From Polytrichum commune (lineage: Eukaryota > Streptophyta > Polytrichopsida > Polytrichales > Polytrichaceae), in the NCBI GenBank assembly GCA_950295325.1, contig OX485809.1, forward strand, positions 23,312,001 through 23,376,000: a stretch of DNA of 64,000 nt, written 5' to 3'. The translations under genes were made by a program, and so were the position numbers. The notes below the pieces were generated by a model. It worked only from the letters and a program-made list of their open reading frames with translations, was not told where the DNA came from and did not search any database. Shown here one piece after another: positions 18,486-56,865 of the stretch (position 1 is its first letter; the number at the start of each line of letters is the position of its first letter).

Positions 18486-18996
18486 CTAAGGGCCACTTCA
18501 CACACGAGCCAAGAGCCATGACCGTGAAATTGTGAGAGCCCACAAGAAAGTGTCTAAAGGCCGTCCCAAGACACCTCCAAAATCATGTAGTGCGGTCACG
18601 GATCCTCAAGTGTAGTGTGAAGTCATATGTACCGGGCCCTCAACCAAATGCTATTTCATTGAATTTCTATTCATGCGGGTCCTCACACATGATAAAATAG
18701 AATAAACCAACGGTTGTGAACGTTCGGAATGCGATGGTCTCCCAATTTTGTGTTAGGCCTACCTCCAAGATGTGGTTTTTGAAAGTAGTCCAAGTGACCA
18801 TGAAACGTGACCCATTTGATGCCATGTAGGAATCAATGTAGACTTTACATCCATCTTGCATTCACGTACTCCGTTGGTCCTTCAAACGTAATGTGAAGCG
18901 AACTTGAATCGGCTCCGCCTTTTCCACCAATGAGAGTGCTCAAAGTGTAAGGGTCACAAGCTCTCAGTCTCGTGTGTGAAGTGGCCCTAAGTGGCA
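18486..18996. mobile_element. About 510 bp MITE unit inside the left arm
   Basis: Begins TAAGGGCCACTTCACACACG and ends with the complementary CGTGTGTGAAGTGGCCCTAA. The interior words recur inverted at 20535-20806 (half unit) and at 36270-36600 (diverged copy), so this is a dispersed repeat family. It has no coding capacity. Confidence 0.65.
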
Positions 18997-29310: not shown

Positions 29311-29574
29311 ATACAAACATTACATTTTCAAGAAAGTAAGAATCACTTGCTTGGCAGTACACATAAACGCATGTAGCTGAACAACATATTGACCATGTTC
29401 AATTGAAAATCAACACTAACAACTAATCCCCAACAAGATTATCCTCAACCCCCACATACCCTCAGACTCAAATGAAATTCTCTCAAATATGAACTCTTAA
29501 CCCCCTACCAGATTCCCCTCAACCCCCACATACCCTCACAGTCATATCAAATTCACTCAAATATTAGAGCCCAA

Positions 29575-29604
29575 AAAGAATGTCTCGGGGCCGAGACACT
29601 CTTT
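29575..29604. repeat. Palindrome family C, copy 1
   Basis: Arms AAAGAATGTCTCGG and CCGAGACACTCTTT around a two-base GG centre; one mismatch in the stem. Three further copies lie at 29814-29843, 30502-30531 and 30736-30765. Arms are conserved and the central four bases vary (GGGC, GCCA). Confidence 0.85.
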
Positions 29605-29813
29605 CTGAGACCTATATTTCAATTTCAGATTAATACCAAAACTAAATAATGACACCCCTACCCCCTACCAGATTCCCCTCAACCCCCACATATCCTCAGA
29701 CCGAAATCAAATTCACTCAAATTTCAAACTCCTAACCCCCTACCAGATTCTCCTCAACCCCCACATACGTACCCTCACAGTCATATCAAACTCACTCAAA
29801 TATCACAGCCCAA

Positions 29814-29843
29814 AAAGAGTGTCTCGGCCACGAGACACTCTTT
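29814..29843. repeat. Palindrome family C, copy 2
   Basis: Arms AAAGAGTGTCTCG and CGAGACACTCTTT are perfect complements; centre GCCA. Confidence 0.85.
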
Positions 29844-30501
29844 CTGAGACCTACATTTCAATTTCAGATTTATAGCAAAATTAAAAAATGACACCCCTAC
29901 CCCCTACCAGATTCCCTTTAACCCCCACATACCTTCACACTGGAATCAAATTCACTCAAATTTCAAACTCCTAATCCCCTACCAGATCCCCTCAACCCAC
30001 ACATACCCTAAGACTGAAATCAAATTCACTCAAATTTCAAACTCCTAACCCCCTACCAGATTCCCCTCAACCCCCACATACCCTCAGACCGAAATCAAAT
30101 TCACTCAAATTTCAAACTCCTAACCCCCTACCAGATTCCCCTCAACCCCCACATACCCTCAGACTGAAATCAAATTCACTCGAAAATCAAACTACTAACC
30201 CCCTACCAGATTCCCCTCAACCCCCACATACCCTCAGACCGAAATCAAATTCACTCAAATTTCAAACTCCTAACCCCCTACCAGATTCCCCTCAACCCCC
30301 ACATACCCTAAGACCGAAATCAAATGCACTCAAATTTCAAACTCCTAACCCCCTACTAGATTCCCCTCAACCCCCACATACCCTAAGACTGAAATCAAAT
30401 TCACTCAAAAATCAAACTACTTACCCCCTACCAGATTCCCCTCAACCCCCACATACGTACCCTCACAGTCATATCAAACTCACTCAAATATCACAGCCCA
30501 A

Positions 30502-30531
30502 AAAGAGTGTCTCGGCCAGGAGACACTCTTT
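30502..30531. repeat. Palindrome family C, copy 3
   Basis: Same arms as the other copies with one stem mismatch next to the GCCA centre (GGAGACACTC). Confidence 0.85.
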
Positions 30532-30735
30532 CTGAGACCTACATTTCAATTTCAGATTTATAGCAAAATTAAAAAATGACACCCCTACCCCCTACCAGAT
30601 TCCCCTCAACCCCCACATACCCTCAGACTGAAATCAAATTCACTCAAATTTCAAACTCCTAACCCCCTACCAGATCCCCTCAACCCACACATACCCTCAC
30701 AGTCATATCAAACTCACTCAAATATTAAAGCCCAA

Positions 30736-30765
30736 AAAGAGTGTCTCGGGGCCGAGACACTCTTT
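30736..30765. repeat. Palindrome family C, copy 4
   Basis: Perfect 14 bp arms AAAGAGTGTCTCGG and CCGAGACACTCTTT around GG; it marks the right edge of the satellite array. Confidence 0.85.
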
Positions 30766-30799
30766 CTGAGACCTACATTTCAATTTATGATTTATAGCT

Positions 30800-34447: not shown

Positions 34448-34925
34448 TGGATTCCAACGCCAGTGATAGTGCGTTTGAGTTGTCTTCGGAAGCGTCAAGC
34501 TATGGTAGCGACTTTGAAGCTGCCGTGGAATATGAAACTACAATTGGTGTCGCCAATGAAGAGGATGAATTCCTTCCACCATGTGAGGGTTATTCACGGG
34601 AACAGTGGGTTGATCTTGATGTTGTCCTAGTCCTTGGTTGTGGCGTTCCCGTAGCTGATGGTGTTTGTAGGAACTCGAATCCTAATGATTGTATTGATGC
34701 AAATCCCTTTGGGGAGGAAGATGTTGGGGTGTGCCTCCAACTCTAGACGTGCAACTTGACAATTGTGCCAAGGACAACAAATGTCGATACATGTTTTTTT
34801 TTTGTCATTACTTGTAGCCAAGGGCATTTTCAAAGAAGTGTTTGTGTTTTTTTTTATGATTGGTTATACGCACAATGACATTGATGCTTTATTTGGATGT
34901 TAGATGCTTCATTTGATTGATTTAC
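34448..34925 (+). pseudogene. DUF7869-type gene with most of its middle deleted
   Basis: The start region (MDSNASDSAFELSSEASS...) leads into WVDLDVVLVLGCGVPVADGV, then CRNSNPNDCIDANPFGEED. This aligns with residues 66-107 of the full-length gene at 41338-44406 (WVNLDVVLVNDSGVAVAEGI, CRNTHPQDCIDEHPLGTED). Immediately afterwards, in a shifted frame, comes PPTLDVQLDNCAKDNKCRYM, which aligns with residues near 587-604 of that gene. About 480 codons between the two are therefore missing, and the frame then runs into stops. The two N-termini differ clearly, so this is a separate, older lineage and not a recent copy. Confidence 0.8.
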
Positions 34926-35850: not shown

Positions 35851-35885
35851 ACTTTCCAAAGTCTCCAATTAACGAATATAGTGTT
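35847..35885 (+). repeat. Element terminus, reverse orientation (right end)
   Basis: A hairpin with arms GAGACTTT and AAAGTCTC (centre CC) is followed by CCAATTAACGAATATAGTGTT. The same end (complement AACACTATATTCGTTAA) occurs at 40807, 46303 and 56865. Its position 3' of the DUF7869 remnant matches the position of the 40807 copy 3' of the full-length gene. Confidence 0.75.
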
Positions 35886-38497: not shown

Positions 38498-40806
38498 CTA
38501 TCATTACAGTATGTGAACTCCATGAATTGTATGGTGAGGTTGGGGTCTATGTCTGTGGGGGGGTCATTTTGTTATGGTAATCCTCTAACACACATGATGT
38601 CAGGTCTAAATCTAGAGTTACAATGGCATCTTTGTGTACCGCATGTGCAAGGGAGTAGCCAATTGGGAACGGTGTTTTCTTGGGGTGTGTTATTGAAGGT
38701 GCCAGCATTCATGAGAATATAACATCGAGATTTTTCGGATGAGATTAGCAGTTTCCTAATTTCCCATACTGCTTTGTTGTGTCTTTTGACGTGAAGTGAA
38801 TGTATATGTTGTTGTTTACACGTAAGTAGTACATGTAACCATGTATCCGGTTCGTATGAATTACAAATGGGGCACGTAATAGAGGGATATGTTTGCCTAC
38901 CAAAGAACAGTTGTTTTCGAGCATTACCCATATAGGTTCCGGTTTGGAATTTGATGAGGCATGATTTTTTTTTATCTGTGATTTCCGGGTTTTCCCAAAA
39001 TTCATTAGAAAGTTCTTTGTCTATATTTGCGTTTCCTGTCCATTTGTAAGTGTTAGCTAGGGGTTTGTGTGGCCAAATTTTCCAAGTTATTTTCCCTATC
39101 ATATTTTATGATTTGTTTTTCTAGGGATCTAACGGGGCCTTTATCAGGAACGTCCGTCATTGAGGCCCAGATGTCCTTTTGGTAATAGTATGGGGTAGCA
39201 TGGGCATGTTCATATGGGTGAATGGCAATTCTGTGGTCTAGTTCAAGGCCTTCTTTTGCCAATTTATCTGCTTGTTCATTGCCGTCAATGTTGACGTGTG
39301 CTCTGACTTTGTATAGTGTGATTGGTTGTGTCTTGTTTTGAAGTAGTTGTACCATGGTAGCGAGGGTGATTTGGTCGGGGTGGCTATTATGTAGTGTGGG
39401 GTGTTTAATTTGTGTGTTAAGTAGGTATAGTATATTTAGATTGTCGGTAAATATGTATGCAGGTTCGTTTGGGTATAGTGTATTAATGATTCTTAATGTT
39501 TTATGTATGGCTATCATTTCTGCTCGTAATATGTTTTGGTGTCCATGTAGTCTTTTAAAGATGTTAAGGCCTTTAGGGCTATAGATACCGTACCCAGCTC
39601 TTTCTCTTCTCCATACTCCAGGGTTAATTTCTTTGGGTTTCATGAAAGAACCATCTGTGTAATAGCTGAATTGAGGGTGGAATTTTAGCGGTAAGTTTGT
39701 TTGGTAATTTGGGGGTTGTGGGATAGCTATGTTATTATTTGCGGGTGCGTTTGGATAGTTTGATTTAGCCCATTTTTTGCTAGGATTAACGGCGGTATTT
39801 AAGGGGGTGGGTGGTGCAATTTGTGTGTGAATTTGTAATATTTGGAGGTTATTTGCTATGGCGGTGAGTTGATTCATTTGTTCGTGGGTGCCGATGTGGT
39901 TGTTTTGGTGGTGGATACAAAATATTCGTAGTGTTGATACTTCTTTCCTCGTGATATTTAGTTCGGGGGGTATTGTAGGTTCTTCGTATGTGATGGTATC
40001 TGCGGCAAAGTGGACAATGATGTGTGTGTCCAAGAATGGGCCGGTGTATGGGTTAAAGTTGTGGTACCAGTCAATATCCTTTGAGATAAGTAAAGTGATT
40101 GTATCTGGGTCATTTTTGGCCGCAATGCGGGTCCAGTGGATGGCTTGTTGTAAGTCTGTTGCATTATGGGGGTGGGCGTAACCGATTCCCTTCCATTTGT
40201 GGTCAAACGTTTTTCCTAGAGATCCGAATATTCTATCCCTAGAGAATGGTGAGTAGAATTGGGTGAACTGTGTGGGGCATGTAACTGGCGATGAGAAGTA
40301 TGATTGATTGATATGGAATGTTGTTATTAGGAAATCTAGTATTGAGGTTGGTATTGTATATTGGGCACGTTTGAGTGGGTCATTTTTTGGAATACGGTAT
40401 TTATATCTTTGGTATAGCCAAACGATTTCAATTTCAAATGATTGGGTAGGTGGTTCTAGGTTATGTGGGGTATTTTTAGCTTGGTGGTATTGTTTCCATA
40501 ACCACATTAATCTAGATTTGGGGATGGTTATGAGGTGCCTGTCATTGTCTTCGTATATGTGAGCGACGTCGAATTGTGTTTGGATAGTGTTAGTATTTGT
40601 TTCGATGTCACTTTCTGGGTTACATTCATTAATGGAAATATGTGCCAATGGGATTATTATGGCAGGGATAACGTATCTAGTATCTCTTTGTTGTTCTGTG
40701 GAGAAGTAGACATTGATAATGTTTGAGAAGTGTTTGTGTTGTCTTTTCGTATAATATTGGGTAAGTAGTTCGGTGTTGTGGCGATTAGTATTGGTATCAC
40801 AATAGG

Positions 40807-40868
40807 AACACTATATTCGTTAAATTGAGACTTTCTCTAGTCTCAAATTAATATATGGATCAAACAAC
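40807..40868 (+). repeat. Element terminus, forward orientation (left end)
   Basis: Starts AACACTATATTCGTTAA, followed by a hairpin with arms TTGAGACT and AGTCTCAA, then AATTAATATATGGATCAAAC. About 60 bp are repeated almost exactly at 46303. The complementary end occurs at 35885 and 56865. It is the 3'-side terminus relative to the DUF7869 gene. Confidence 0.8.
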
Positions 40869-41337
40869 ATTCCGTGTTCCGAAACTATATTGAGAACGAT
40901 CTCAAATATATTATATGTTCTAATATCCCAAATCTATTATGTGTGGACATAAGCACATGTGGTAGAGCACTCAACACCAACTTCATCTACAAAAACACTT
41001 TGGGTAGAGCACTCCAAACTAGTTTCACCCAAGAAACATATAAAATGATTTCTATTATTAGCATGGTCAATAAAATATAGACATTGCAACATACAAAGTG
41101 CATGCAATAAATGCATTTTTCTTCAATGGAAAATTTAGTCCCAAACTTAATAAAAAAATGAACTTCACAACTGTATTGAAATATAGTAAATGGATATTCA
41201 TCCAACCCCAAACAATATAGCATTCGCAAGTTCTACCCAAACTTTGCCCCAAGTTTGAGGAGCACATATATGAGTAATATATATTCGTCGAATTACAGTT
41301 TACACTATAATCATGCTAACACAATCCTACCAACTTC
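40869..41337. other. Subterminal region between terminus and DUF7869 gene
   Basis: AT-rich with no gene. It contains a partial direct repeat (GTAGAGCACTC... at 40960 and 41003). Confidence 0.4.
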
Positions 41338-44300
41338 TCATTCAACGTGGGTTGCTTCTTCTGCGATCCGAGCAAGGTTGTCTTTTGCAAAAGTTATGTA
41401 CTTTTGAGGGATGGACACTGATCCACTATGATTTTTCCGTGGTTTCCATGCTATGAATATGGAATCTGTATCTACCCAAGATGGACCATGCTCAGAATCC
41501 ACCTTCCACCGAAAGTTAGGGTTTGTATCCCAGCCTGTATAATGCCGAACAACATCTTCATTCCGTGCTGTCGGTCGGTAGTACTCTACTTGTATTTGTC
41601 GAAAATGAGGGCTGGAAGTTACAAAATTTGGTTTGGACAAAGCTCTTGCCACCCACACTGGCTTTGCATATGTCTCATCTCCAGGACGCAAAATGAGCAT
41701 ATAACCTTCATGACAATCCACTGCAATGCGGAAAGATGGTGGCGGACGACTACTAGCAGGCCCCACGTAATGGTCGTCCACATCAAACTCCTCTCGAACC
41801 TCTCCATTTCCCAAAAGACTAGCCTCCGAAGCTTGTACATTGACACGTGTTTGTGGCCAAAACCCATGCCTTAAAGTAAGGGGTGTATCTTGATGAAGGT
41901 TTGCCAAAGCGCCACGAACACGTGTCCAATATTGTATCCAACTTCCGTAACGAAGCCAACACGATCCACCAACATCCGCTACCCTCAAACTCTCCCAATA
42001 TTGTATGAAGCTTGATATGCCTTTACAAATGTCCTCCAAATTCTTCATGGGTATTGGTTTGCAAGGCTTAGGCTCTCCGTCAGGCAACATCGTCCTTCCT
42101 TCCCCATCAACACGCCATACAAGGAGACCCTCCGGCGGGCTCCAGTCTTGTGATGTGCACAACAACTTGTATTGCATGGCGGGGACACCATCGTCACGCA
42201 CGTAGAACCGAAATTGTTGTGCCTTCGTATGCCCGATCAATCGGTGAGCTCCGCTTCGAATATACGGTTCTATAAATGCCTTGAAGTCTGGAACCTCCTC
42301 GATCATATGGGGGATGACGGGAATGTTCTCCAAATCCATGTACGACTTCATCAACAATGGGATTGTTGGAAAATCCTCCTCGCGCAACTTCATGCTCCAC
42401 CGCCCAAAGGACGCATCAATATCATCGTGCGTATGGCCTACCAATAGAAAGGACACAAAAACCTCCTTGAAAATGCCTTTCGCAACCAACAACGACCAAT
42501 ATGCAAAAACATATCTACTTTTATTGTCCTTCGCACAATTGTCCAATTGGACACGCAGAGTTGGGGGCAACTTCTTGGCAATCACATCTTCACTTGGTGG
42601 CTCCGGCAATGAGTGCACGCATACATCTCTTCCATCTAAGACCGCTTCATATAGAGGTGTTGATCCCGAGTTTTCAAATAACAATCTTGATGAATAGGAC
42701 GGCGGTTTCTCCAAATCACGTAAAAGCTTTGCAAATGACCCTATCGTGTGGTTTGAATCCGCCGGATACAAATCAAGAGCATAATGAGCATATTTGACAT
42801 CACCATGCCCATGTGCAATCATTCCTGCAAAGGCAACCCAATGGTTTAATATTCAACTATAACACCAAAAAATTCACATGGTGTACATGTATGGCCCCAA
42901 GTACAAACCTAAACGCACAAATTTGTGTTTAGGTAATGCAATGCAATTGTTATCAAAATCACCTGTAACCGAAACAGGAAGCTTAAAAAGGCCGTCCGTG
43001 GCTTTGATTCGATTTGCAAAACATGGTGAGGCTGTTTTGGCATGGTCCATCTTGTCATGGATGATTGTAAGGACTTCCAAAGGCCTGGAGATGGACAAAG
43101 CTCTATTTGTGTAGTAATCATTACGGTGTGCCTCTTGCATGTTCACATGCTTGAAATAGTTCATTTGATGTGCGGCATAGGACTCTGTCCCCATCGTGTG
43201 TGCATCTCGAAGGCGTTTCAACTTCTCGCATTTGGAACAACGGGCAAATTTGTCGCCTCGTCTTTTTGTGATGTATTCGCTAAAGTGAGATTTTTTTATA
43301 GCACTCAGTTTCGACAACGAAATTGGGTCCAACCCGGCCTTCTCGCCAACTGCGTTTACGTCCAACAATATGTCTTTCCATTTCGTGCCTGTAGGAAGAA
43401 CCTTCTCCACAACCTTTTCACCGGTTGCGAGTGTGCGTGTTTTGTGCGGCATTGCATCGGCAAGGGGGACAATGATGGTTGCCAAAGTGGCTGTTGCTTG
43501 TCTCGTTGCTTCTCTTGGTTTCTTTAAGCCCATGTTCCCATGGTGACGGGCACGGCGGCCTTCATTGGCATACGCGGCTTGTCTATAAAATTCCGCTTTC
43601 GACACACCATGAATGGTGTACCATGCCGTATAACACACGTCTATGCTCTCAAGGGTGATGACCTTGCGACCCGCTCTGTTCACATGTATCGCCCTATGGA
43701 CATCAAGTTTTTTGGTGGATCTCAGACGGAAATCTCCAAGCCACATTTCTTCACGGATGGCCTTCAATTTATCTCTTGGGAACAATTGGCAACAACGATG
43801 TACACAACAATCCTTCGTAGCAACTTCTCTAATAGACTCCTCACAGAGCAACCTTTGACGTTTACACTTATTTGCAGACGGAGTAGGACGTGTCAATGTT
43901 TCGTACTTCCGAAGGCCTTTGCGTGGCCGAATGTTTGCTTGGAGCTCCTGTTGGATTTGGACGTGTCGTCGCTCATGGTCGCGCAAGCTAACCCCCTCAA
44001 TTGTCACATTCCTCAACGGCCACCTTCGCAACGAGAACCTATGAGTTGGATTGACTTCCGAATGTACGAGTGATTCTAATATAACAACTCCAACGTCCTC
44101 GGTGCCAAGGGGGTGTTCATCAATGCAATCTTGTGGATGTGTGTTACGACAAATACCCTCCGCCACAGCAACTCCACTGTCATTAACAAGTACCACATCC
44201 AAATTCACCCATGAAGCTCGTGAAAGCCCCGCACATTCCACAATGGGGCAAAAAGGGTCAGATGGCGAAGGACTCCCCAAATGACCTTCATCTGCACTGT

Positions 44301-44406
44301 CATCAAAACTATCCTCCCCGACAATGTCTAGCTCATCCCCAGACAGAGATTGGGTGCTGCCCATGTCTTCAGAGAAGGAATCCCCTCTTCCACCAACTCC
44401 CTCCAT
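41338..44406 (-). CDS. DUF7869-type protein, putative transposase, full length
   Basis: Two exons: 44406-42909 and 42824-41338. The intron (84 bp, donor TTAG|GTTTGT, acceptor TTTGCAG) joins in frame through a split Gly codon to give 994 residues. An acceptor-like TGTGTGTAG lies just upstream of the ATG, so a 5' UTR intron is likely. The N-terminus is acidic. Around residue 200 is a Cys-rich DCCVHRCCQLFPRDKLK segment, near 265 HGVSKAEFY, and near 405 CSKCEKLKRLRDAH. The C-terminal half has an RNase H-like look: IIHDKMDH near 465, QLDNCAKDNKSRYVFAYWS near 591-609, and LLVGHTHDDIDASFG at 625-639. These are the landmarks of DUF7869, a family frequent in animal and plant genomes. A transposase role is inference from the acidic clusters and from its position within repeated termini. 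No frameshift or stop interrupts it. Confidence 0.8.
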
Positions 44407-44606
44407 TACGCCTACACACATGCACATGAAATCTCAACAAACATGGACACAACGTAAGGGTCCAAAAGAATCAAATATTGGAAAATGCAAAACATCACGA
44501 TGAATGGGGACACTGAGGATCAAGACATTTGCAACACAAATGCAATGTGAGCTCCCAATACTATGCGCCAGTCCACAAAATGTTCCACAAAATATTTTGG
44601 GTGGGA

Positions 44607-45012
44607 GTTTGGGTCAGCCGACCTAAACCCTATGGCACCAGGGATTGAGGGCCATCCCCACCTTGCCCGTGGGATAGGGTCGGGTTCCGGTCGACCGACT
44701 CAAACCTTGTACAATGATGGGTTGAGGGCCATTTAGAATTCCATCACACTGTGGGGAAAACTTTGGGTCGACCGACCCAATCCTTGTCATGGTCAACTAC
44801 AACCGCCGAAACTGGGGAAGGGGTTTGGGTCGACCGACCCAAACTTTCACAGGGTAAACCCACCCACACTCAGAAAGGGTTTGGGTCGGTCGACCCAAAC
44901 TTTCACAGGGTAAGTCCACCCACACCAGGAAAGGGTTTGGGTCGGTCGACCCAAACTTTCACAGTGTAAATCCACCCACACTGGGATGAGGTTTGGGTCG
45001 CTCGACCCAAAC
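44607..45012. repeat. Palindrome family A, dispersed copies upstream of the DUF7869 gene
   Basis: The unit has arms GTTTGGGTCG and CGACCCAAAC around two bases. Good copies lie at 44762 (AC centre, one end eroded), 44823-44844 (AC), 44879-44900 (GT), 44935-44956 (GT) and 44991-45012 (CT); degenerate ones lie at 44607-44628 and about 44692-44715. They are spaced 56 bp apart from 44823 onward. They lie directly 5' of the - strand DUF7869 gene. Confidence 0.95.
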
Positions 45013-45110
45013 ATTACATATGATGGGATAAGGTTCCTACTATGTCCGTCCAAACCTTCTGAGTACCTTGGGTAAGGGCCATTAACAATTCGTTCACGAT
45101 GTGCGAAAAA

Positions 45111-45580
45111 GTTTGGGTCGACCGACCCAAACCTTCTAAAAGGTTTTACGATAAACGCCCACAGTGGGGTAGGGGTTTGGGTCGACCGACCCAAACCTCA
45201 CAAGGGTCAGAGTAGACCCCCCCCCCCCCCCAACACTAGTGAAGGGGTTTGGGTCGACCGACCCAAACCTCACAAGGGTCAGAGTAGGCCCCCCCCCCCC
45301 AACACTAGTGAAGGGGTTTGGGTCGACCGACCCAAACCTCACAAGGGTCAGAGTAGACCCCCCCCAACACTAGTGAAGGGGTTTGGGTCGACCGACCCAA
45401 ACATCACAAGGGTCAGAGTAGACCCCCCCCCCCAACACTAGTGAAGGGGTTTGGGTCGACCGACCCAAACCTCACAAGGGTCAGAGTAGACTCCCCCCAA
45501 CACTAGTGAAGGGGTTTGGGTCGACCGACCCAAACCTCACAAGGGTCAGACTGGAACCCGCCAACACTAGTGTCGACCGA
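45111..45580 (+). repeat. Tandem array of 65-72 bp units, each with a family A palindrome
   Basis: Palindromes (all AC centre) at 45111, 45175, 45247, 45316, 45381, 45449 and 45514. From 45175 on, each unit is CTCACAAGGGTCAGAGTAGA, a poly-C run of 6-14, CAACACTAGTGAAGGG and then the palindrome. Unit length varies mainly through the poly-C run. The array ends in a half palindrome at about 45573, followed by a short ACGTATAATGCGGC repeat (45581-45640). Confidence 0.95.
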
Positions 45581-46302
45581 CGTATAATACAACGTATAAT
45601 GCGGCGTATAATGCGGCATATAATGCAGCGGATATTGAGAGGTGTGTGGAATTTCAGCTCATTGCAAAGTTCACTGCGGACTTGCATGCTGTGGATAGGT
45701 CTTCACGAACAGCAGCGTGAACGAACCTCGAAGTACAGCTCCGACTAAGAGTTCTCTCTACGAATTCAGGAGTGGGAGAAGAGCAAAAAGAAACCAACTT
45801 TTGGGGGGTGCGCCCCTTTATACTATCCACCTCCACTTGCCCGACTTCCTCATTGGATGCCTTTCCCGCCTTGTTATTTCAAACCTCCTGACAGAATTCC
45901 CCGTTTTCTGTTTATTGTAGAAAATGCGCATCTTTCAATGCCCCTCTCATACCCCAGCCGTCATATGATTTAGTCTATGATATTTAATCTTTTTTTGGTT
46001 TTGTGTGTATATGACATACGACATTGGGAGGAAGGGTGGCGGCCACATTAATTTTTTCAAGTGTCACAACGGTATATTTTAACCAATATGTATACCCAAC
46101 CACAACTCCATTCAATGCTTTCAAGTGCAAACCTATTTCGGTGGGGTTGGGGCCATTTGGAGGCTGCAATTATGAGAGAGTTTCCAAGGCTTGAGGCCAT
46201 TGTCATGATGAATAAAATTATTTATTTGTCTCCCCTAAATCCTAAACCCTAGAACATTGCTCTATTATCTCGCATGGAAGTGTGGCAATGATAAACGTAT
46301 GT
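45581..46302. other. Intergenic DNA with short CGTATAATGCGG repeat
   Basis: About four copies of a 13-14 bp word (CGTATAATGCGGC) at 45581-45640; otherwise no gene. Plant telomere-like CCTAAACCCTA occurs near 46243. Confidence 0.4.
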
Positions 46303-46363
46303 AACACTATATTCGTTAAATTCAGACTTTCTCTAGTCTCAAATTAATATATGGATCAAACAA
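46303..46363 (+). repeat. Internal copy of the element terminus
   Basis: About 60 bp nearly identical to 40807-40868, including the terminal AACACTATATTCGTTAA and the GAGACT hairpin (here CAGACTTT...AGTCTC). It is forward oriented, so it could be the left end of a shorter element 46303-56865. Confidence 0.75.
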
Positions 46364-48154
46364 AAACTTCTACAATGTCACCCTAATGCATCATATACAT
46401 ATTAAATGATGATATTGATCTACTTTAATTCAAACATTACGGTATGGCATTAACCAATATGTAGACAAAAGAAGTCTAAACATTGTGTAACGCCTTATGG
46501 TAAGAGTCACTAAATACAATAGTTAAAGTGGTTATGAAGATCCTCGCAAGGGGAATTATTAATTTTGAAATCAAATTATGTCATGACAAAGTTCATTTAT
46601 TGTTCCAAATCTGAATTTGCAACAATGCAAGTGACAAGAGCTTTTATATATAATATGTTGTCATCCCTAAACCCTAAACCCTACAATATTGTCCTCTTCT
46701 CTCGCATGCAAGTGTGGCAATGACGAATGTATGTGGACGTCGATAAGGGGATACTAACTACCAATGTCGCTTTTTAGTTCAATATTTCCATGCTAATTGA
46801 ATCCATCCTCAAGTTCACTTCAAGCTTACTAATGTGTGTGAACAAAACATCCAAAGTTGAACCCTAAACCCTTATAACATCCACAACATGAAATTATACG
46901 TATTGACTAAACCATACACCAATTAGTATATCATGTTTAGACGTTCCAAATAACATATTCACATGATCAAGATTGTGGTCACTATAACCTTCCTATTAGA
47001 CTCTTCTTAATATATAAACAACATTTCTTATATCTTTCTCCATTATCTAATATACGTGGAGGGAACAATGAACAACAACACGATTGCTTGCATGGCTTCA
47101 TTTGATGTTGTGCTTAACCGATTTACGTTTATATCACATTCCATATATTAAATACATCACGAACCATAGTTTATTGGCGACTATGTGATTCATCAAAGGG
47201 AGCAAAACATCCAAAGTTAGACCCCTAAGTCCTAATAACATCCACAACATGAAATGCTATTTGAATAAACACAAGACCAATTAGTATATCACGTTTAAAC
47301 GTCCCAAATAACAACTTAACATACTCAACATCATCTTTACTATAACCTTCCTATAAGACTCTTCTCACCAGTAAGTCAATGTTGTACGTTAATATTGGAT
47401 AGATTAATATGTTATAACCATGACTCCTAAACCCTAAACCCTAAACCCTAAACCCCAAATCTTGTAGTTGTTCAGTGCTACCTCCATATACAAACAACAT
47501 CAAGTTTGTCTTGCGCCATTATCTAATATACTTGGAGCGAACCTTCAATAACAACATGATTGCTTGAAGGGCTTCATATGATGTTGTGGTTCTCCGATTT
47601 GCTTTTATATCACATTCCAAGTACATATATCACGATCCATGATTTATTGGCGACTATGTGATTCATCAAAGTGAATATCTAGGGGATACCCTATAAAACT
47701 TGAGCATGTTAGCATTTTGAAATAAAGATCATGCAATTCCAAACCCTCACAATATGCACTTGGGGAAGGTATTCATTTAGGCTCCACATTCAAATATCCT
47801 CAATTTCCGAATTTCATGTTGGGGGGTGGGGATTGTCTTTTTTATTCATTGCATATTGTGTGAGTTGTTGGCATCAATGGTAAAGTCTATTGTATTTGGC
47901 ACGTAATTGTATTTTTTTTATAACGTGCTCAAACAAACGAGAAACCAATGACTTCAACTTGTTTGGAAAATTTAGTTAATGGTGTCATGTAAGTAGGAAT
48001 TAAGTATTAGTGTTAGCATAAAGTTGCGTTGTAAAGATGTATTAGTTGTATAAATGGTTTAGTTTTTTAGAATACCTCATTTGATGTATACCTTAGGCTA
48101 CTCCAAAGTCTATTCAAAATTGTACTACCCACTAAGGGTTTACTCCTTAGAGGG
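46364..48154. repeat. Degenerate direct repeats with interstitial telomeric motifs
   Basis: Segments of 46235-46310 and 46660-46735 share CTCGCATG(G/C)AAGTGTGGCAA. Segments of 46848-47165 and 47205-47660 share AAAACATCCAAAGTT, ATAACATCCACAACATGAAA, CATTATCTAATATAC and ATTTATTGGCGACTATGTGA. A CCCTAAA run (four units) lies at 47427-47456, with single copies elsewhere. No coding frame. Confidence 0.6.
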
Positions 48155-49036
48155 ATGGGAGTTAGGGTTCCCCGTAACCCTATTCCCGTTGCTGCCCTAA
48201 TCACGTTGGCACCCTATTCGCGCGGTTGGGGGCCAATTCCCGAGGGTAACAAAACCCCAGCCGCCAAGCATTCTCCTCCTTTCTCTCTCTCTCTCCCGCC
48301 AACCTTTCGCTCCGCGCCTCTTGTGGAAGCGCCGCCTCTCCTGAAGCGCCGTGGCGATTCAGGGTGGCGCTTTTCTTTACATTCCTTCTCCACCCTTTTT
48401 TCTTCTCCTTCCCTCCCTTCTCTTGCTGTAGCGGGAGATTGCACTAGTGTTGCAATATATAGCATTGTTGAAGTGTTTTCCAGATTGTTGAAGGGTTTTC
48501 CAACATTCTGTGTGAGCTTTAGGCAGTGCTTGCGAGAGTTCGAAGTGCGGATGAGTGCATGTGAGTGCTTGTGAGTGCATGTGAGTGCTTGTGAGTACAT
48601 GTGAGTGCTTGTGAGTGCATGTGAGTGCTTGTGAGTGCATGTGAGGGCTTGTGAGTGCATATGAGTGCTTATGAGTGCATGTGAGTGCTTGTGAGTGGTT
48701 GTCAGATTAGGAAGTTCTATAAGAGATACAAAAGTGATACAAAAGTGCTTTCAGAGATTTAGTTATTGTTTTGAGAGATTTAGTTGTTGTTTTAACAGAC
48801 TCAGTTGTTGTTTGAGAGTTACAATTGTTGTTTGAGTGATTCTGAAGAGACTCAGGAGTTGTGTGAGAGATTGTGGGTTTATTGAGAGATTCAAGAAAGG
48901 TTTGAAATCTTTGGTAGTTGTTTGTGAGTTTTAGCGTGTCTGCGAATAGGAATTCACTGATTCTGTCTTAGTCGAAGAAGAGCACTTGTTCAAAAGCAAC
49001 CATCTGCAACGACTACAACAGAAACCCTCAACAAAG
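48155..49036 (+). promoter_or_regulatory. Putative promoter and non-coding first exon of the ParB/methylase-like gene
   Basis: GC rises here, with a CT-rich tract (48279-48299) of a kind common in plant 5' leaders. A minisatellite of alternating GTGAGTGCAT and GTGAGTGCTT decamers runs from 48548 to 48699, and TTGTTTGAGAG-type words follow. The stretch ends at a good donor (ACAAAG|GTATTG, 49036). The next acceptor (TTTCTTTGCAG) is immediately followed by ATG at 49547. I therefore infer a 5' UTR exon spliced over an intron that holds family A palindromes. The small frames here are not convincing proteins. Confidence 0.4.
48548..48699 (+). repeat. 10/20 bp minisatellite
   Basis: About 15 decamers alternating GTGAGTGCAT and GTGAGTGCTT, with occasional substitutions. 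Confidence 0.9.
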
Positions 49037-49156
49037 GTATTGTTTTTCAAGGGGTTCCAATATGTGTTTCTTAATTGACAGTGTTGTAGCATACACAATG
49101 CATAAGCATTGTATATGCTACATGCCAAGTTTAAAAAACTATATTAAAATAGAACA

Positions 49157-49520
49157 GTTTGGGGAGACGACCCAAACACAGCCTATAGTTTGGGTCGATC
49201 GACCCAAACAGCACGATGTGCTTTGGGTCCCTAAACCCTAAACACAGCCTATAGTTTGGGTCGATCGACCCAAAGCACATCTTGCTGTTTGGGTCGGTCG
49301 ACCCAAACGCAACCTCTACAGTATAAACTTTTCAAGAAATCCTTGATGACAATATAAAACGCAAATCCACCCAAGATAACGAAATACCATATAAACATAT
49401 AAATGAAGTTCTAAAATAACAAGACACAATCCAAAAATAAATGCGTTGATGCATTACATTTCCCTTCCATCACGTGACATCTAATCTATTGTGAAGAAGT
49501 TTGGGTCGAACGACCGAAAC
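49157..49520. repeat. Family A palindromes in intron 1
   Basis: Copies at 49157-49177 (degenerate), 49188-49209 (AT centre), 49254-49275 (AT), 49287-49308 (GT) and 49499-49520 (AA centre, right arm eroded). All are within the inferred 5' UTR intron 49037-49546. Confidence 0.9.
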
Positions 49521-49546
49521 TAACATCCTTGCTTCTTTCTTTGCAG

Positions 49547-52500
49547 ATGGCCCCAAAGAAAAGACCAGGAGAAAGGTGGTTCATGCTTGCGCCAGACGTG
49601 TTATGGCAGGAGCACGAAACACCTCAGGATGACTCATATGTCCCTAAGGACGGGCTTGTCCTCGCCTGGTCAATTCAAGTAGTAAAAACCTCCATTTACA
49701 AACTGATATTCGTTGTCAAAGTAGGGACCGTGGAAAAACATACCTGGGCGACTCTTACAGGATGGGAGGTGGCGTCGGTCCAGTCTTTTGGAGACTACGC
49801 AGACGTCATCCTTGAGAACAACGCTGTGCAGAATGCTCATATGTTTCTGCACCAGTTCGTCGAACCCTTTGACGCTACATATGCAAGGGAGTCATGTGTC
49901 GAACCTGATGTAATCAAACCCGAGACAATTTTCATCGATGCCAGTACATCGAACACAAAGGTCTCGAGCCGGTTTACGAAACTAAAGCATGCAATCAGCG
50001 TGCTCAACAAAGCCCTGCAGAGCAAAACGAAGTCTCAGCAAGCCGTCAGGCGGAAGGTACCCACTGAGGAAGGTGCAGGGTCGTCAAGGCCTCAATCAGT
50101 GAGGATGCCGCAACCAGTCCCGGCTAGCTCAAGACGAACCACTCCATCGGAGACACCGGCGGATAGCCAGACTCCTACGCCTTCTGGCAGCCGCCAAACA
50201 ACTCCCTCCAAGAGGGCGAGAGAGTCATCTGTGATGACTGACGAGCCAGTCTCTCCAGAATTGCGCATGCCGAAGCCAGGGCAGGAAGTGGATGCAGGGG
50301 AGATCCAAAAAATCGTGAACAATTTCACGACCAAGTGCTCCCATTGCTTTTTCATGGGCAGGGATTTCAAATTCGACGTGAACATCAGTCAGTGTCATCT
50401 CGCGCCACCAGAAAAATGTGTCCGAGCAAAAGAAGACGCCTACGTCGATTGGATAATCGCGCAGATCGTTAGCGAACAATTCAAAGACGACAGGCAAACC
50501 ATTGTAGTGATGCCCCAGGGACTGAAGAAAATGCCTACCCCTGAAATGTGGGCGACAATTCAGAAAGGCGATTTTTGGCTCATAGACGGCCAACACAGCG
50601 TTGAGGCTTCCAAGAAAATCCAACTGATGACTGAATGGGACGATCCCAACCATCAGAAGGAGAAGTTGAAGGTGTGGAAGGCACTGGTGGTGTGGTCTGA
50701 CTGAGCGACATCTCCCGTTACTTTAACATGGGGAATAAGAAAAGGGCCTACCAAGCTTCCTGGATAAGGAATATCATGGCCTCGCGGGAGGTGTGGGAGT
50801 TCTATGGTAGGCCTCCCAAGGAGAGGGAGAATGCAAAGGACAAGAATCCCAAGTGGGAGGTGAGTATTGTTTGGGTCGATCGACCCAAACTCCTTTTGCA
50901 GCTTTATTTGTGTATTTTGGGTCGCTCGACCCAAACTCTTGTTGCAGTCATGTTTTTTAGTTTGGGTCGCTCGACCCAAAGTCTTGTTGCAGTCATGTTT
51001 TTTAGTTTGGGTCGCTCGACCCAAAGTCTTGTTGCAGTCATGTATTTTTTAGTTTGGGTCGATCGACCCAAACTCTTGTTGCAGTCATGTTTTTTTAGTT
51101 TGGGTCGATCGACCCAAACTCTTGGTGCAGACACTGGTCATGATATGTTTTGGAAATCACATGTTCATATCTAACATGCATTCAAATGATTGTTTTGATC
51201 ACATGCAGGACTTCAAATACCAAATGATAAATAAATTCTCCTCCATTGATAATGCTAGTCACAAACAGAAGAAATACAACGAGCTTAGAGGGGAGATTTA
51301 TTTAATAACAGCATCCGACTCCGTTTGGATGAAGTGGAAGAGTGTATTTGAGAAGCATGAGACGGGTGAGCTCATCGACCCGGACACAGGAATTTTCTTC
51401 AACCAAACCACGCGCTTCAAACAAATGAAGCCTCTCGTGAGAGAGTTCTTTAGAACTCTTCAAGGCCTTTCCGAGACGGAGATGGAGAAGGTGGCGGCGC
51501 ACATCCTGCATTTCACGCCCACGGCGAAAAGGTGCTGGGTGCACCCGAAGATTGTCTTCTTAAAGCCCAAATCCTTCGTCCCTTCATGCTACACCATGAA
51601 GGAATGGACTGAGAATAGGAAAAAAAAGACAACTATAGTGCAGGAGCTGCATAAATTGGTGCCGGAGAGGAATATTGTCGTGGACGGCGAGGTTCATGAG
51701 GCTAACTGGAGAGCATTCAAAGCTGAATATAAGTTCACCAGTGCCTCCATGGCGGCTCTAATAAGGGAAGCGGGGGATGACTTCTTGCGGGCCAAGATGG
51801 TGAAGGGTGGGAAGAACCGGGCGCTTCCGGATCACACAGCGCGTGCGTTCTCGAACTTCATCAAAGAGAAGAAGATTGTCCAGTTTGAAGGGGACGCTTA
51901 CTTCAACCTTGTCACCTTCGAGCCTTTGAAAATTCAGGGCTGGCCAGGTCAAGACGCCAGAATGGCGATAAGGACGAAAGCAGGGGGGCGTTTCCCATTC
52001 GGAATGATAGATTTCAGGAACATTCCTGGAAGCTCATTTGAGGGTACGATGAGCACACTGTTTTACGACCCCTTCCTATCTAAGTTCGTCGATTATGCGA
52101 GTCCTAAGTTCAGGGAGGTTGATGTCTGGCTATGGATAGTCGAGGATAGGAGGGCGGAGCAGGTGTACGACCTTGTCCGGAAATTGCAGCCGGAGTATGC
52201 AGTCTCCAAGTCTCACTACATCGCCGCACCGGCGGAGGGGGCCTACACGTCGTTGAAGGACAAGAAGACCAAGGTCGTCAACGTCCTGTGTTTGTACTTC
52301 GTGTACAAAGCGGAGTTGTTGAAGGTGCCGAACCACCCTATATCCCGGATGGACAAGCTCTTCCAAGTTCTAGATGGGTTAGGTTCCAGCAAATGCCTAT
52401 ACGACGAGGCCAAATACGCAAACTATCCTGCAGATGAGCTGCGGATGGAATTCTACATGCGGATGCTGAGGACGCTGACTAGGAGAGGGGACTGTATCTT

Positions 52501-54155
52501 CAACGTGTTCGGGGGCTCGAAACCCCTCTATGCTGCCATGGTAAGTTACATTCTTTAGCTCTTGCGCAGTTTGGGTCGGTCGACCCAAACTAAATATTGT
52601 TTTTGGTCTTGTTTTTTGTCTTGCAAATTCTAATTTCTATATAACTTGGATTGTGTAGATGTTGGGGTTGAACATCTACTCGTACATAGAGGATAGCGAT
52701 CTGCAATTTTACAGGACGCAGAAATCGCTGGCAAAGAAGATGGATATCCTCGATTGGATCCCGGGAAGCTACGTGGACGAGGTTGTTGAGGGGGGTGAGA
52801 ACCCTCTTGATAGGGCGAGGCGGATCAACCCGGAAGAAATTGCGATAAGGGCAACAACCCAATTACCCGAACCTCTAGTCGGGTTGCATCCGGGCAATCC
52901 GTCCCGTACAGGAGGTGGAGAGGTGGAAGAGGAGGAGGAAGAAGAAGAACACGGAGAGGAGGAAAAGGAGGGGGATGTGGAGGAAGGGGCAACAGGATTC
53001 ACGCAAGAATCTGAAGCCCCTCAGAGGAAGAAGGCTATGCGTGTGGCAACCCCGCAGAGTAAGATGATGCCCGTCCTTACGGTGGACGATGCGAGGGACA
53101 TGTACTCCAGGGACGCGACTGCCACGTTCCGGGAGAGGAGGAAGTTAAAGGGAAAGAAGCTCTATGGCGATTACGCATTGGAGGAGACCATTGCCATTAG
53201 CAGCGAGGACGACGACGACATTGAGCTCGCCAAACGGCTCAGATCGGATCCCCCCTCCCCGACAGCGTTCGCAGGCATGGTTAGGGTGAAACCCGAAGTC
53301 CTCACTGTGGAGGAAGCCAACGAGAAGATGCGTAGAGACGAGGAGCAGCGCGTCCGCCTGCAGAGGGCTGCCGCGGAAGAACCCTCCGTGCGGAACGAGG
53401 TTGCAGAGCTGAGGGCTCTCCTCTTGGAACAAGAAAGACTAAGGGCGATGGCCCAACCTCCATCCAGCGCCGACTTGATATCGCAAGTCATACAAGGGAT
53501 GTGGGCGCAAGGATTGGTGGTGGCTCCATCCAGCTCGTTTCCGCACTTGCCCCCCGGTTTCCCAGCGCAGAGCATCCCTCAGCACCCAGTGTCGCAAGGG
53601 TCATTCAGCTTCCAGCACATGATGCGGCCGCCCCATGTTCCGTACGCGCCGGTCCAACAAGTGGACGATCCCAACATCTGGCGCGTATCTGGAGCCTCCT
53701 CCCCGTTGGGCCCTCCACCACTACGACCCCCCATAGTGATGGCGCCCCCTCACCAGCCGGACGATCCCAGGATGTTTGGGTCGACCGACCCAAACCCACC
53801 CTCGACTGTAGTGCCCCAAGGCGCCTCCCCCGATGTAGGACAGTTTGGGTCGCCCGACCCAAACCCCGGAGCAGCTCAGTCCTCCCTTGACGAACTTGTG
53901 TCTCAAAGAGACACAACCATGTTAGATGTTGAAGGCCTCCAAGGGCCTGGTGATACCTCTAATCCTAACCAAATCGATGAACCCATGCATGATGCATATG
54001 CGGAGATTGGTTTAGGACAAGGGCCTGATGCTCAACCTTTGCAGGACAAGGTCCCTGACGTAGGCGGAGAAGGCGGTGGCGAGAGAGGTGGGGCACCGGG
54101 GACGGTGGAGGCATCCACATCGTCGAGACATGACCAGGGCGAGGTAACACACTGA
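49547..54155 (+). CDS. ParB-like domain joined to N4/N6 DNA methylase-like region
   Basis: Three coding exons joined in phase 0: 49547-50859, 51209-52540, 52659-54143/54155. The start ATG directly follows an acceptor. Exon 1 ends with a ParB/Srx-like segment: GDFWLIDGQHSVEASKKIQ (about residues 344-362), then, after a one-base frameshift near 50700, DISRYFNMGNKKRAYQASW, resembling the NKxA region after ParB domains in phage methylases. Exon 2 contains LFYDPF, WLWIVEDRR and ends RRGDCIFNVFGGSKPLYAAM; exon 3 begins MLGLNIYSYIEDSDLQFY. This junction resembles motif I of beta-class N4/N6 methylases (DPFxGSGTxxxAA...GxExDxxY), although Asp-Pro is replaced and no DPPY is visible, so catalysis is doubtful. 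The rest of exon 3 is acidic, coiled and Pro-rich. The frameshift may be a mutation or an assembly error. Confidence 0.6.
50869..51118 (+). repeat. Family A palindrome array in intron 2
   Basis: Six copies (20 bp cores) at 50870, 50916, 50961, 51006, 51053 and 51099, with centres AT, CT, CT, CT, AT, AT. From the second copy the unit is 45-47 bp: TCTTGTTGCAGTCATG, T-run, AG and the palindrome. The array fills most of intron 50860-51208. Confidence 0.95.
52569..52590. repeat. Family A palindrome in intron 3
   Basis: One perfect copy with GT centre inside the 118 bp intron 52541-52658. Confidence 0.95.
53774..53864 (+). repeat. Two family A palindromes inside coding sequence
   Basis: 53774-53795 (AC centre) is translated as FGSTDPN and 53843-53864 (CC centre) as FGSPDPN, both in the open frame of exon 52659-54143. 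This is the only place where the repeat lies in an exon. Confidence 0.9.
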
Positions 54156-54174
54156 GCCCTCCCAGTTTGGGTCG

Positions 54175-54196
54175 ACCGACCCAAACCTCCTTGGTC
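54175..54196. repeat. Family A palindrome after exon 3
   Basis: Perfect copy with AC centre, just 3' of the donor-like GAG|GTAACA at 54143 and of the in-frame stop at 54155. It lies in a probable intron 54144-54606. Confidence 0.95.
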
Positions 54197-54606
54197 ATTG
54201 TCTTGTTGGCGTGGTCTTGTCCCCCCTAGCTATGAGGAACTACACCCCCCCGACGCACCCAACAACGTGCTCCCCCCGCGATCCCCTTCGTCTCACCTCA
54301 CTCGACTACGCTCAACCTTGGCGGCGCGCAACCAATTTTGTAGATGTACAATTAGGATAGTGTGAATGCCCTCGTTCACCGCCCCCCCCCCCCTCTCAAA
54401 TTGTACATAGAGATTTGTAACAATAAAATTATTATTTTTGGCGCCCATATGTTAGCATCCGTGTCCCAATGTATGTTGTTCCCCTTGTATGTTTTTGTTG
54501 CCACCAATGGTCCAATTCTTCTTGTGTTTGCACAAAATTTCCGTTCTGCTTGAATTAAACATAGCATAACATAGTCCTCGCCGCCTTCTCTCGCTCGTCG
54601 CCGCAG

Positions 54607-55419
54607 GGATCGGAGCATAGCGTCGTGGCTCCCCACCGGTCCTCCCCGAGGAGCGTGGAGGACAGCGCGGTGGTCCCCCCGATTTTGCCCTCCCCGTCTC
54701 CGCCGCCCAAGACACGGTTCCTGGTGCTAGACCTCAACGGGGTCCTCGTCCAGTGCGTGCACTGTCCCAAGGTCCCCACGGTGCCTTTCTGCAAGCCCGA
54801 GGACGGGAACTACGATGGTCCCCCCGCGTACATCAAAAGCAAGCTAGTGTACCTCCGCCCGTGGCTTCGGCGCTTCCTGCAGGTCGCCCTATCCAAATGG
54901 TGGGTGATCGTGTGGAGCTCCATGAAGTCCGAGAACACCCAGGCCGTCGTGGAGTTCATCTTCAAGGGACTCCAACCCCCGTGCTTGGTCCTAGGACAGG
55001 ATTCTTGTAGAACGTTATACACCCCCGAGGGCAGGGTTGTGAAAAAGCCCAACAACCCCGCCGTAAACCAATTTCTTAAGGTCTTGAAGCCAGTCGTATG
55101 GGACCAGCGTCCGACCATGGTCGGCTGTCCCTACGACGTTCGCCCCACCCGTGACAACACGTTGATGGTGGACGACAGCGCTTCCAAGAACATTTTGAAC
55201 CCGACCTCGAACTTCATAGTTTGCCCCACGTGGACGGTCGAGAAGGTCCGAGACCGCTTTTTGTTAGACCTACTTAAGTACATTCAAACGCTCGTGGGGA
55301 GCGGACTACCCGTGCCCCGGTTCCTTAGTTGTAATCCGATAGGCGAAAGATACATGGATCCGAAGGACTATATGTACAGAGAGTTGTACGCTCACGCGAA
55401 ATATAATAAACTCATTTGA
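54607..55419 (+). CDS. FCP1/NIF-type HAD phosphatase domain exon
   Basis: About 270 codons. The frame has no ATG between the upstream stop (54562) and the domain, but an acceptor (CTCGTCGCCGCAG) precedes 54607 in phase 0. It is therefore an internal or 3'-terminal exon, possibly continuing the exon ending at 54143. HAD motifs are visible: FLVLDLNGVLVQ (nucleophile Asp; the second Asp of DxDxT is Asn), WWVIVWSSMKSEN (motif II), and NTLMVDDSASKNILNP (motif III DD). This is the FCP1 homology / NLI-interacting-factor fold of C-terminal-domain phosphatases. The Asn substitution is known in a plant subgroup and may reduce activity. The stop is at 55417-55419. There is a high density of Pro before the domain. 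Confidence 0.7.
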   Translation, partial: GSEHSVVAPHRSSPRSVEDSAVVPPILPSPSPPPKTRFLVLDLNGVLVQCVHCPKVPTVPFCKPEDGNYDGPPAYIKSKLVYLRPWLRRFLQVALSKWWVIVWSSMKSENTQAVVEFIFKGLQPPCLVLGQDSCRTLYTPEGRVVKKPNNPAVNQFLKVLKPVVWDQRPTMVGCPYDVRPTRDNTLMVDDSASKNILNPTSNFIVCPTWTVEKVRDRFLLDLLKYIQTLVGSGLPVPRFLSCNPIGERYMDPKDYMYRELYAHAKYNKLI

Positions 55420-55538
55420 GATACTACATGGTGTGCCATTGTGTGTGATATAGTATGCCTCAATTGTATATCGATTTTCTCATGCTCCCCCCCTGCCCCC
55501 CTCCCCTTGGGTTTTGTTTGTTTTAATTTTCCCATCAG

Positions 55539-56327
55539 CGTTTGGAGCCCTCGATTGACATCGTCAGCGAATCAAACTTGGGGAGCTTCTTCTACGAGAC
55601 CGTCTACGATGCCGCGTCCACCATCGACTACTCCAAGGAGCCTATTGATGCCGGCGTCGTCGATAGCCCCCCACCCAAGCAAATCTTCCGGCCATCTCCG
55701 TCCCCGTCGCCGCTCAAGGGCATAAATCGCAAATGCGTCCGGACGTCCCCGTCTCGGCCCGGCGGCAGTAGTACACCTCAACGGCGGCTGCGGATGGACG
55801 CTCGGCCTACGAAGAGTGGCACCCTTCCTATTCCTTTGCGGGACGCATTGCCCCTCCTCGCCGACTCCGACGGGAACGCCCCCGGTGACAAGGTGAACCC
55901 CCCCCCCCCCAAAACATGGTTAACCGCGCATTACAATCATCCGGCACTTAAAAAATGAACGTGTGACACGTTTGGGTCTTCCTCCCTAAACTAACACGTG
56001 TGTTCTTGCATTCACACGTTGCAGGTTGCTCCCACCCGTAGACCTATGCGGGCTAGTGCGTCCGTCGAGTTGGAGCGTTTCTACTCCATGACCAGAAATG
56101 CAAGACAGTCCACTTCATCGTATTCGAATTCTTCGTCGTATAATTCGGGCGGCCGACGGAATCCAAAATGTGTTATTGATGGCGGTCACCCCAAGAATGG
56201 CTATAGTCGCGGGGCGGAGATTTTCAGGAATGTTGAAGCAATGCGAGCAAAAGAAGCCGCAGCAAAAGAAAAAGAGGCAAAAGAAAAAAAAGCAAAAGAA
56301 AAAGAGGTAGTCTCCGAGGCTAGATAG
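55539..56327 (+). CDS. Two-exon 3' part of an unidentified gene
   Basis: Exon 55539-55892 follows a strong polypyrimidine acceptor (TTTTAATTTTCCCATCAG) and reads RLEPSIDIVSESNLGSFFYE, then a Pro/Ser/Arg-rich stretch. It ends at donor GACAAG|GTGAAC. Exon 56025-56327 starts after CACACGTTGCAG and reads VAPTRRPMRASASVELERFY..., ending in an Ala/Lys/Glu-rich helix (AKEAAAKEKEAKEKKAKEKE). Both junctions are phase 0. No domain is recognised. It may belong to the same transcription unit as the phosphatase exon by alternative splicing, since that exon ends with a stop. A degenerate family A palindrome (55970-55991) lies in the intron. Confidence 0.45.
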
Positions 56328-56439
56328 GCCATAGTAGGCGTAGGGTTGTGAGCCATAGGCAAGAACATTTTGGGTCGCACTATCCAATGGATGTGTGGTG
56401 TTAGCATGCTATGCATTTTACATGCCATAATTTGTATGT

Positions 56440-56710
56440 TTTTTTTGCAATAATATAAGTGTCACATGATTTCCCCTTCAATATGGTCTAAGGTTTGGAT
56501 TGCCCTACCTAAACCATCACAAATATGAGTTTGGAATATTTTGTATGTTATATTATATTGGTTCACATATTTCCCCTTCAATATGATCTATGGTTTGGAT
56601 TGCGCTACCTAAACCATATTCATACAAGTTTTTGTGCGATAATATAAATGTTTTAAGATTTCCCCTTCAACTTGGCCTAAGGTTTGGATTGCCCACCCTA
56701 AACAATCCCA
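56440..56710 (+). repeat. Three tandem units of about 100 bp with a degenerate palindrome
   Basis: Each unit has ATTTCCCCTTCAA(C/T)(A/T)TG followed by GGTTTGGATTGC(C/G)C(T/A)(A)CCTAAACC, an imperfect inverted repeat whose outer bases GGTTTGG and CCTAAACC recall family A. It lies just upstream of the right terminus. Confidence 0.65.
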
Positions 56711-56843
56711 AATATGAGTTATTAATGGGGTTCTTGTTCTAAACACCCGCTTCAAAGTGTTCGCATCTTACAACTTTCTCCAATATGTGTTCCATTTATC
56801 CTTGTTCTTATTTATGTGATTATCTCAAAATGCCCAAAAAGTC

Positions 56844-56865
56844 TCAATTTAACGAATATAGTGTT
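56844..56865 (+). repeat. Element terminus, reverse orientation (right end)
   Basis: AAGTCTCAATTTAACGAATA followed by TAGTGTT. On the complementary strand it matches the first 28 bases at 40807 and 46303 with at most one difference. Confidence 0.8.

Follow-up and report, generated by a model that had tools for sequence, protein, structure and literature searches.

Giant transposons with a gene that combines ParB-like and methylase domains are already known from algae. Excerpts of the Ectocarpus report describe Sola1-1_Ec32, a 21.5 kb transposon in which one gene, on the strand opposite to the transposase, joins ParB-like and DNA methyltransferase domains, and they place ParB-methyltransferase accessory genes in green and red algal transposons too (PMC12477816). 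Here we describe a transposon family represented at positions 40807-56865 of a 64,000-nucleotide stretch of Polytrichum commune DNA (hereafter the window; G000:C7:23312001-23376000 of the source genome). As far as these excerpts go, the family is like the algal type in being a giant DNA transposon with, opposite the transposase, a gene that probably combines ParB-like and methylase-like parts. Unlike the algal type, it resides in a land-plant genome with moss-like relatives, reaches a high copy number and includes a HAD domain in the exon series; moreover, a DPPY-type motif was not found in the exon rows compared, and candidate self-binding sites can be named, of which the excerpts make no mention. 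Searches of the open literature, outside which most subscription journals lie, returned no land-plant case, no DUF7869 transposase and no binding site for such a protein.

In Arabidopsis, excerpts of the report on VANDAL transposons and their VANC proteins describe clusters of short, family-private motifs that precede the transposase gene and also occupy introns of the factor gene, often in tandem and changing between families; the motifs are non-palindromic and in a single orientation, and VANC proteins carry DUF1985/DUF287 (PMC5735166). Judged by these excerpts, the present family is like VANDAL/VANC in layout only, with private clusters located both within introns and ahead of the transposase gene (407 copies in 16 elements); here clusters are also found outside elements, and the sites, unlike VANC motifs, are palindromic and 20 bp long. 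The VANDAL transposase is of the MULE type, and neither a MULE-type transposase nor DUF1985/DUF287 appeared in Pfam scans of the element exons and 37 ParB-exon members, which listed DUF7869 and NIF. Fungal transposons encode TET/JBP dioxygenases, thought to aid escape from methylation-based silencing (excerpts of PMC12730594); on that description they resemble the present family in having an accessory gene with a proposed anti-silencing role, and differ in enzyme family and hosts.

The family at 40807-56865 is a cut-and-paste DNA transposon whose inverted ends are 28 bp long and whose target duplications measure 4 bp. Its 17-mer end, AACACTATATTCGTTAA, occurs 1,183 times in the 407.8 Mb, 64-contig source genome (594 forward, 589 reverse), where the reversed control has no copy, and exactly four times in the window, at 35869-35885(-), 40807(+), 46303(+) and 56849-56865(-); the shuffled window yields a mean of 0.01 matches at up to two mismatches. 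The first 100 listed ends, all on contig 1, were the source of the sampled pairs. Among their 99 gaps, those of 14-19 kb comprised 15 convergent (+-) pairs, none in the (-+) orientation, one (++) and one (--). We sampled all 15 convergent 14-19 kb pairs (E01-E15) and both convergent 3-6 kb pairs (S1 and S2); the "16 elements" below are E01-E15 plus the window copy. Every one of the 15 long elements has identical 28-bp inverted ends around one divergent gene set, with the DUF7869 exons on one side and the ParB-like, methylase-like, exon 3, HAD and last exons on the other. Full-length elements measure 14-18 kb and are present in many copies. All 18 elements carry the same 28-bp repeat on the left, and 17/18 carry it unchanged on the right, where the short form S1 is one base off. 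An exact 4-bp target duplication flanks all 17 sampled elements (15 long plus two deletion forms), with 16 different sequences among them when oriented alike. Sola superfamily transposons, which have a DDD-type transposase and are present in plants, also make 4-bp target duplications.

Three empty sites, all paralogous, were found inside the window itself, where the joined flanks of E13 (~9.4-9.6 kb), E15 (38.7-39.3 kb) and S2 (31.3-31.8 kb) align across the junction to related repeats at 63-77% identity (172/224, 164/232 and 145/229, respectively). The 4-mer is kept for E13 (TAGT; TAGG-type) and E15 (ATGA); for S2 one base is changed (CTCT vs CACT), and the right half of the alignment is gap-rich. 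Damage is seen in some copies: DUF7869 exon 2 is interrupted by other insertions in E01, E11 and E12, and the methylase exon of E07 matches in one piece over only 90 residues. The deletion forms S1 and S2 (L031 and L032; 3.6 and 4.8 kb) still have the two termini, exon 2 of DUF7869 and an exact 4-bp target duplication. Most exons of the element are under purifying selection. Overall, these results agree well with the first-pass annotation of the window, made from its letters, which had proposed a 28-base end at 40807 (forward) and 56865 (reverse), both present and identical over 28 bp, and a DUF7869-type gene on the minus strand. The latter matches PF25273 in Pfam (E 5.6e-42) in two exons and, by modelling, is probably a DDE/RNase H (DDE/D) transposase. 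The same annotation had suggested a genome search for inverted end pairs around these genes, a constant target duplication length and empty sites, all of which were found. Its "cargo transposon" is indeed a transposon; the cargo, the ParB/methylase-like/HAD gene, is a constant part of the sampled full-length elements (15/15) and not an occasional passenger.

We infer that plus-strand exons 1-6 (Table 1) form one gene, which lies opposite to the transposase gene within one element in 15/15 sampled long elements. Its methylase-like part is suggested by fold comparison, and we read MLGLNIYSYIEDSD in exon 3 as the methylase region after motif I. The ParB-like part shows a weak sequence match, to the ParB-like PHROG_1033 in 10 of the 37 members of alignment A4 (best E 0.01), and the box LIDGQHSV, which we take to be ParB-like, is found in 14/16 elements. 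Pfam and NCBIfam returned no ParB or methylase match for the plus-strand exons, and sequence searches of the PDB with them gave nothing convincing. The HAD domain is of the NIF/FCP1 type (PF03031, E 1.5e-13), as the first-pass annotation had it. Its ParB/methylase-like gene stands for both parts at these strengths and needs one correction, a frame break in exon 1 of the window copy near 50,700, where database homologues such as P0042 are open; the additional gene that it had left unnamed is now read as exon 5. A DPPY-type catalytic (D/N/S)PP(Y/F/W) motif was absent from all 42 methylase-exon rows and all 37 ParB-exon rows (exon 3 of the homologues lay outside the comparison), and DFRNIPG-like residues occupy one conserved place in most of the 42. 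The methylase-like domain is probably catalytically altered. As for origins, viral contigs contained no match to the methylase exon, the DUF7869 exon, the palindrome described below or alignments A4 and A3, and one scan of prokaryote genome contigs with A4 gave no match and so no bacterial donor.

The element is densely marked by a 20-bp palindrome, TTTGGGTCG-N2-CGACCCAAA, with 24 exact copies in the window and a centre that is always two bases long; in these copies the 18 fixed positions are invariant by definition, while flanks and centre vary. Allowing up to 5/18 mismatches, 37 of 38 window matches fall inside 40807-56865, on both sides of position 46303 as previously noted, compared with 0-2 when the stretch was block-shuffled 20 times, and only 13 of the copies inside are degenerate (1-5 mismatches). 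The same palindrome, in the same register or shifted by one base, topped the de novo motif list in 15/15 other long elements, which hold 13-38 exact copies per element; S1 and S2 have no exact copy and one each with at most three mismatches. The 300-bp flanks of the sampled elements contain no exact copy. Genome-wide, 9,731 exact palindromes were counted, against 0 for the reversed control. The 407 exact copies in the 16 elements are confined to particular places: 247 are intergenic (178 on the DUF7869 side and 69 in the 1.5 kb that precede the ParB-like exon), 130 are in introns (65 in intron 1, 49 in intron 2, 16 in intron 3) and 30 are in exon 3, with none elsewhere; in particular, the stretch from the left end to the start of DUF7869 and the part past the HAD exon have none.

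The copies in exon 3, which offer a stronger test, encode FGSxDPN (two copies). Between amino-acid-identical codon pairs, synonymous differences amount to 1.1% in these palindromes versus 29% at codons for these residue types in the remainder of the exon; synonymous sites are frozen, and this reflects selection on the nucleic acid and not on the protein. Single-mismatch palindromes of the 16 elements include 23/90 CpG transitions. The commonest single change, with both arms pooled, likewise accounts for 23/90: G>C at the fourth position or C>G at the seventeenth, the difference between the TTTGGGTCG type and the TTTCGGTCG type described below. CpG depletion did not discriminate as a mark of methylation escape (0.74-0.83 in elements, 0.28-0.78 in other window stretches). 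Nine exact palindromes were also seen outside element genes (L033 840-3528 and 5012-5500, L034 1739-2221; C1:474500-487500), with no DUF7869 or ParB exon match; they lie 1.5-4 kb upstream of another gene containing FIWDGNHRFLAW, presumably a ParB-like box, and VVDLTCSTGASILATRACGRHLLAFESDND, presumably a methylase-like motif. By hmmsearch, this gene has no significant similarity to the element's gene.

Palindromes of further copies were decoded from intron ends translated along with database exons. Of 96 homologues, 72 had a parsed end, and 40 of these yielded 54 palindrome matches, compared with 0-2 in each of 10 shuffles and 2 in the remaining, exonic sequence. The half-sites were TTTGGGTCG (37), TTTCGGTCG (6), TTTCGGGCG (5) and TTTGGGCCG (4), with two odd ones. 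On the methylase-exon tree (42 rows, 19 labelled), the four types need three changes, which is the minimum, and 0/200 shuffles are as low. On the ParB-exon tree (37 rows, 21 labelled; the window plus 36 of 55 homologues), they need four changes, with 3/200 shuffles as low; here the two TTTCGGTCG rows are unclustered, and a TTTGGGTCG row is the sister of P0072. Labels for mixed matches were chosen by hand, P0021 by majority and P0087 (in neither tree) likewise by hand, while P0053 was left unlabelled. Half-sites differ between ParB/methylase gene clades, a pattern compatible with co-evolution but not proof of it, as shared ancestry alone could suffice.

On balance, we consider the best explanation of the whole to be probable, if by no means certain: an element with a DDE/D transposase whose plus-strand protein binds the element's own palindromes and acts against silencing in a VANC-like manner. 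The protein would bind palindromes in promoter regions and introns, contacting as a dimer two TTTGGGTCG half-sites across two free bases; binding would mark the element as self and keep its genes unsilenced, as VANC does for VANDAL. It is from the VANDAL/VANC-like layout, with family-private sites arrayed in tandem both ahead of the transposase gene and within introns of the conserved accessory gene, that we infer both the identity of the binding protein and the anti-silencing outcome. A more far-reaching version, which we put forward tentatively and with somewhat more doubt than belief, is that the ParB/methylase-like protein is a catalytically retired methylase turned sequence reader, in a clade-specific lock-and-key with half-sites TTTGGGTCG, TTTGGGCCG, TTTCGGTCG and TTTCGGGCG, such that no clade licenses copies other than its own; plants would then have a second VANC-like self-recognition system of independent origin. 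If true, anti-silencing address systems arose two or more times among plant transposons. In a land-plant genome, a probable binding site can now be named letter by letter; it exists in clade-specific versions, has thousands of copies and shows a signal of selection. The self-recognition idea put forward for algal ParB-methylase genes becomes directly testable, and DUF7869 elements gain a function to look for.

The chief rival to this self-binding explanation is an active enzyme: the ParB/methylase-like protein would methylate its own palindromes as an N4-cytosine or N6-adenine methylase, for self-marking or for the timing of transposition. The methylase-like fold is in keeping with this, and in excerpts of the Ectocarpus report the authors propose that a protein of this kind binds the transposon encoding it and modifies it epigenetically (PMC12477816); the 42 methylase-exon rows, with their DFRNIPG-like residues and no DPPY-type motif in a comparison that left exon 3 of the homologues outside, make us regard it as unlikely. 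Alternatively, the DUF7869 transposase might bind the palindromes, which would then correspond internally to subterminal repeats, and the ParB/methylase-like gene would have another role. The palindromes are tied to DUF7869 elements, and the other DUF7869 remnant comes with a palindrome set of its own; however, the lack of exact copies towards both ends of the 16 elements, the two deletion forms that lack exact palindromes although their 17-mer ends and target duplications are intact, and a half-site type that follows the ParB/methylase exon trees (the DUF7869 tree was outside the comparison) render this distinctly improbable. A role in RNA, as hairpins steering the splicing or stability of element transcripts, would suit the intronic copies (130/407) and the ability of the palindrome to fold on itself, but 247/407 copies are intergenic and the letters are fixed, which pairing alone would not need; we give it hardly any credence.

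The copy in the window, 16,059 bp long, is a damaged mosaic. Over its left part it shares 98% identity with E04, E06 and E14, over its right part 96% with E11, and its outer flanks, TAGG and AATT, lack a target duplication, as the first-pass annotation had stated; they are unmatched probably because of exchange between copies. About 60 bp of the left end are highly conserved, including GAGACTTTCTCTAGTCTC, which is able to form a hairpin. The extra left end at 46303, alike to that at 40807 over 61 bp at 98%, opens an insert of 355 bp flanked by a 77-80 bp direct duplication (46226-46302 and 46658-46734). This extra end, the unlike flanks and the different nearest copies of the two halves would all suit two adjoining partial elements, yet the intergenic region aligns to the full copy E04 on either side of the insert and 15/15 other elements share the same whole organisation, and we consider two partial elements very unlikely. 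The one-unit reading of the first-pass annotation was right, and the shorter element at 46303-56865 that it kept as an alternative is rejected on the alignment, position 46303 being no element boundary. The insert itself resembles a one-ended insertion or a template-switch product.

Table 1 Coordinates of the 40807-56865 element and of the second, decayed DUF7869 element in the window
Feature	Position	Strand	Remark
12 copies (7 exact, 5 with 1-3 mismatches) of palindrome TTTACGGAC-N4-GTCCGTAAA	32935..34305		5' side of DUF7869 remnant
DUF7869 remnant	34534..34897	+	
Terminus of second element	35869..35885	-	
Left 28-bp terminal inverted repeat	40807..40834	+	
DUF7869 gene exon 2 (PF25273 match)	41338..42824	-	boundaries from sequence
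DUF7869 gene exon 1 (N-terminal transposase part)	42963..44406	-	boundaries from sequence
11 exact palindromes upstream of DUF7869 gene	44824..45534		
355-bp insert starting with extra left-end copy	46303..46657	+	alignment with E04
3 exact palindromes upstream of ParB/methylase-like gene	49189..49307		
Exon 1: N-terminal domain, linker, ParB-like domain (box LIDGQHSV)	49547..50859	+	
6 exact palindromes in intron 1	50870..51118		
Exon 2: helical region, first part of methylase-like domain (N6-adenine/N4-cytosine type)	51209..52540	+	
Palindrome in intron 2	52570..52589		
Exon 3: in-frame continuation (MLGLNIYSYIEDSD) and long low-complexity region	52659..54143	+	
Two palindromes in exon 3 coding sequence	53775, 53844		
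Palindrome in intron 3	54166..54185		a single copy per element in all 16
Exon 4: HAD phosphatase-like domain (PF03031), motif I VLDLNGVL	54607..55419	+	
Exon 5 (earlier "one more unidentified gene")	55539..55892	+	
Exon 6	56025..56327	+	
Right 28-bp terminal inverted repeat	56838..56865	-	

The second DUF7869 element of the window is decayed. Its terminus at 35885 lies 3' of the remnant, in the same relation as at 40807, in agreement with the first-pass annotation. Its palindrome differs from the TTTGGGTCG type yet occupies the corresponding place.

Several other features surround the element. At 39053-40810, a minus-strand frame with RNase H and PCIF1-type domains is open up to the left terminus, where it meets its first in-frame stop, and a 40% identical piece lies at 11715-11975; a 600-bp translation to the right of 56865 showed no continuation of the interrupted RNase H frame. 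Just outside the right end, 58095-58838 encodes a Ulp1-type protease (PF02902), with no match listed in the 17 sampled elements. Direct repeats of 1.1 kb at 12399-13507 and 27376-28486, 96% identical and 15 kb apart, form a pair resembling long terminal repeats. Inverted repeats of 0.6 kb at 18165-18752 and 20536-21143 (88% identical) are possibly the ends of another, smaller element, and 29428-30786 is a tandem array of 75/239-bp units with strong GC skew.

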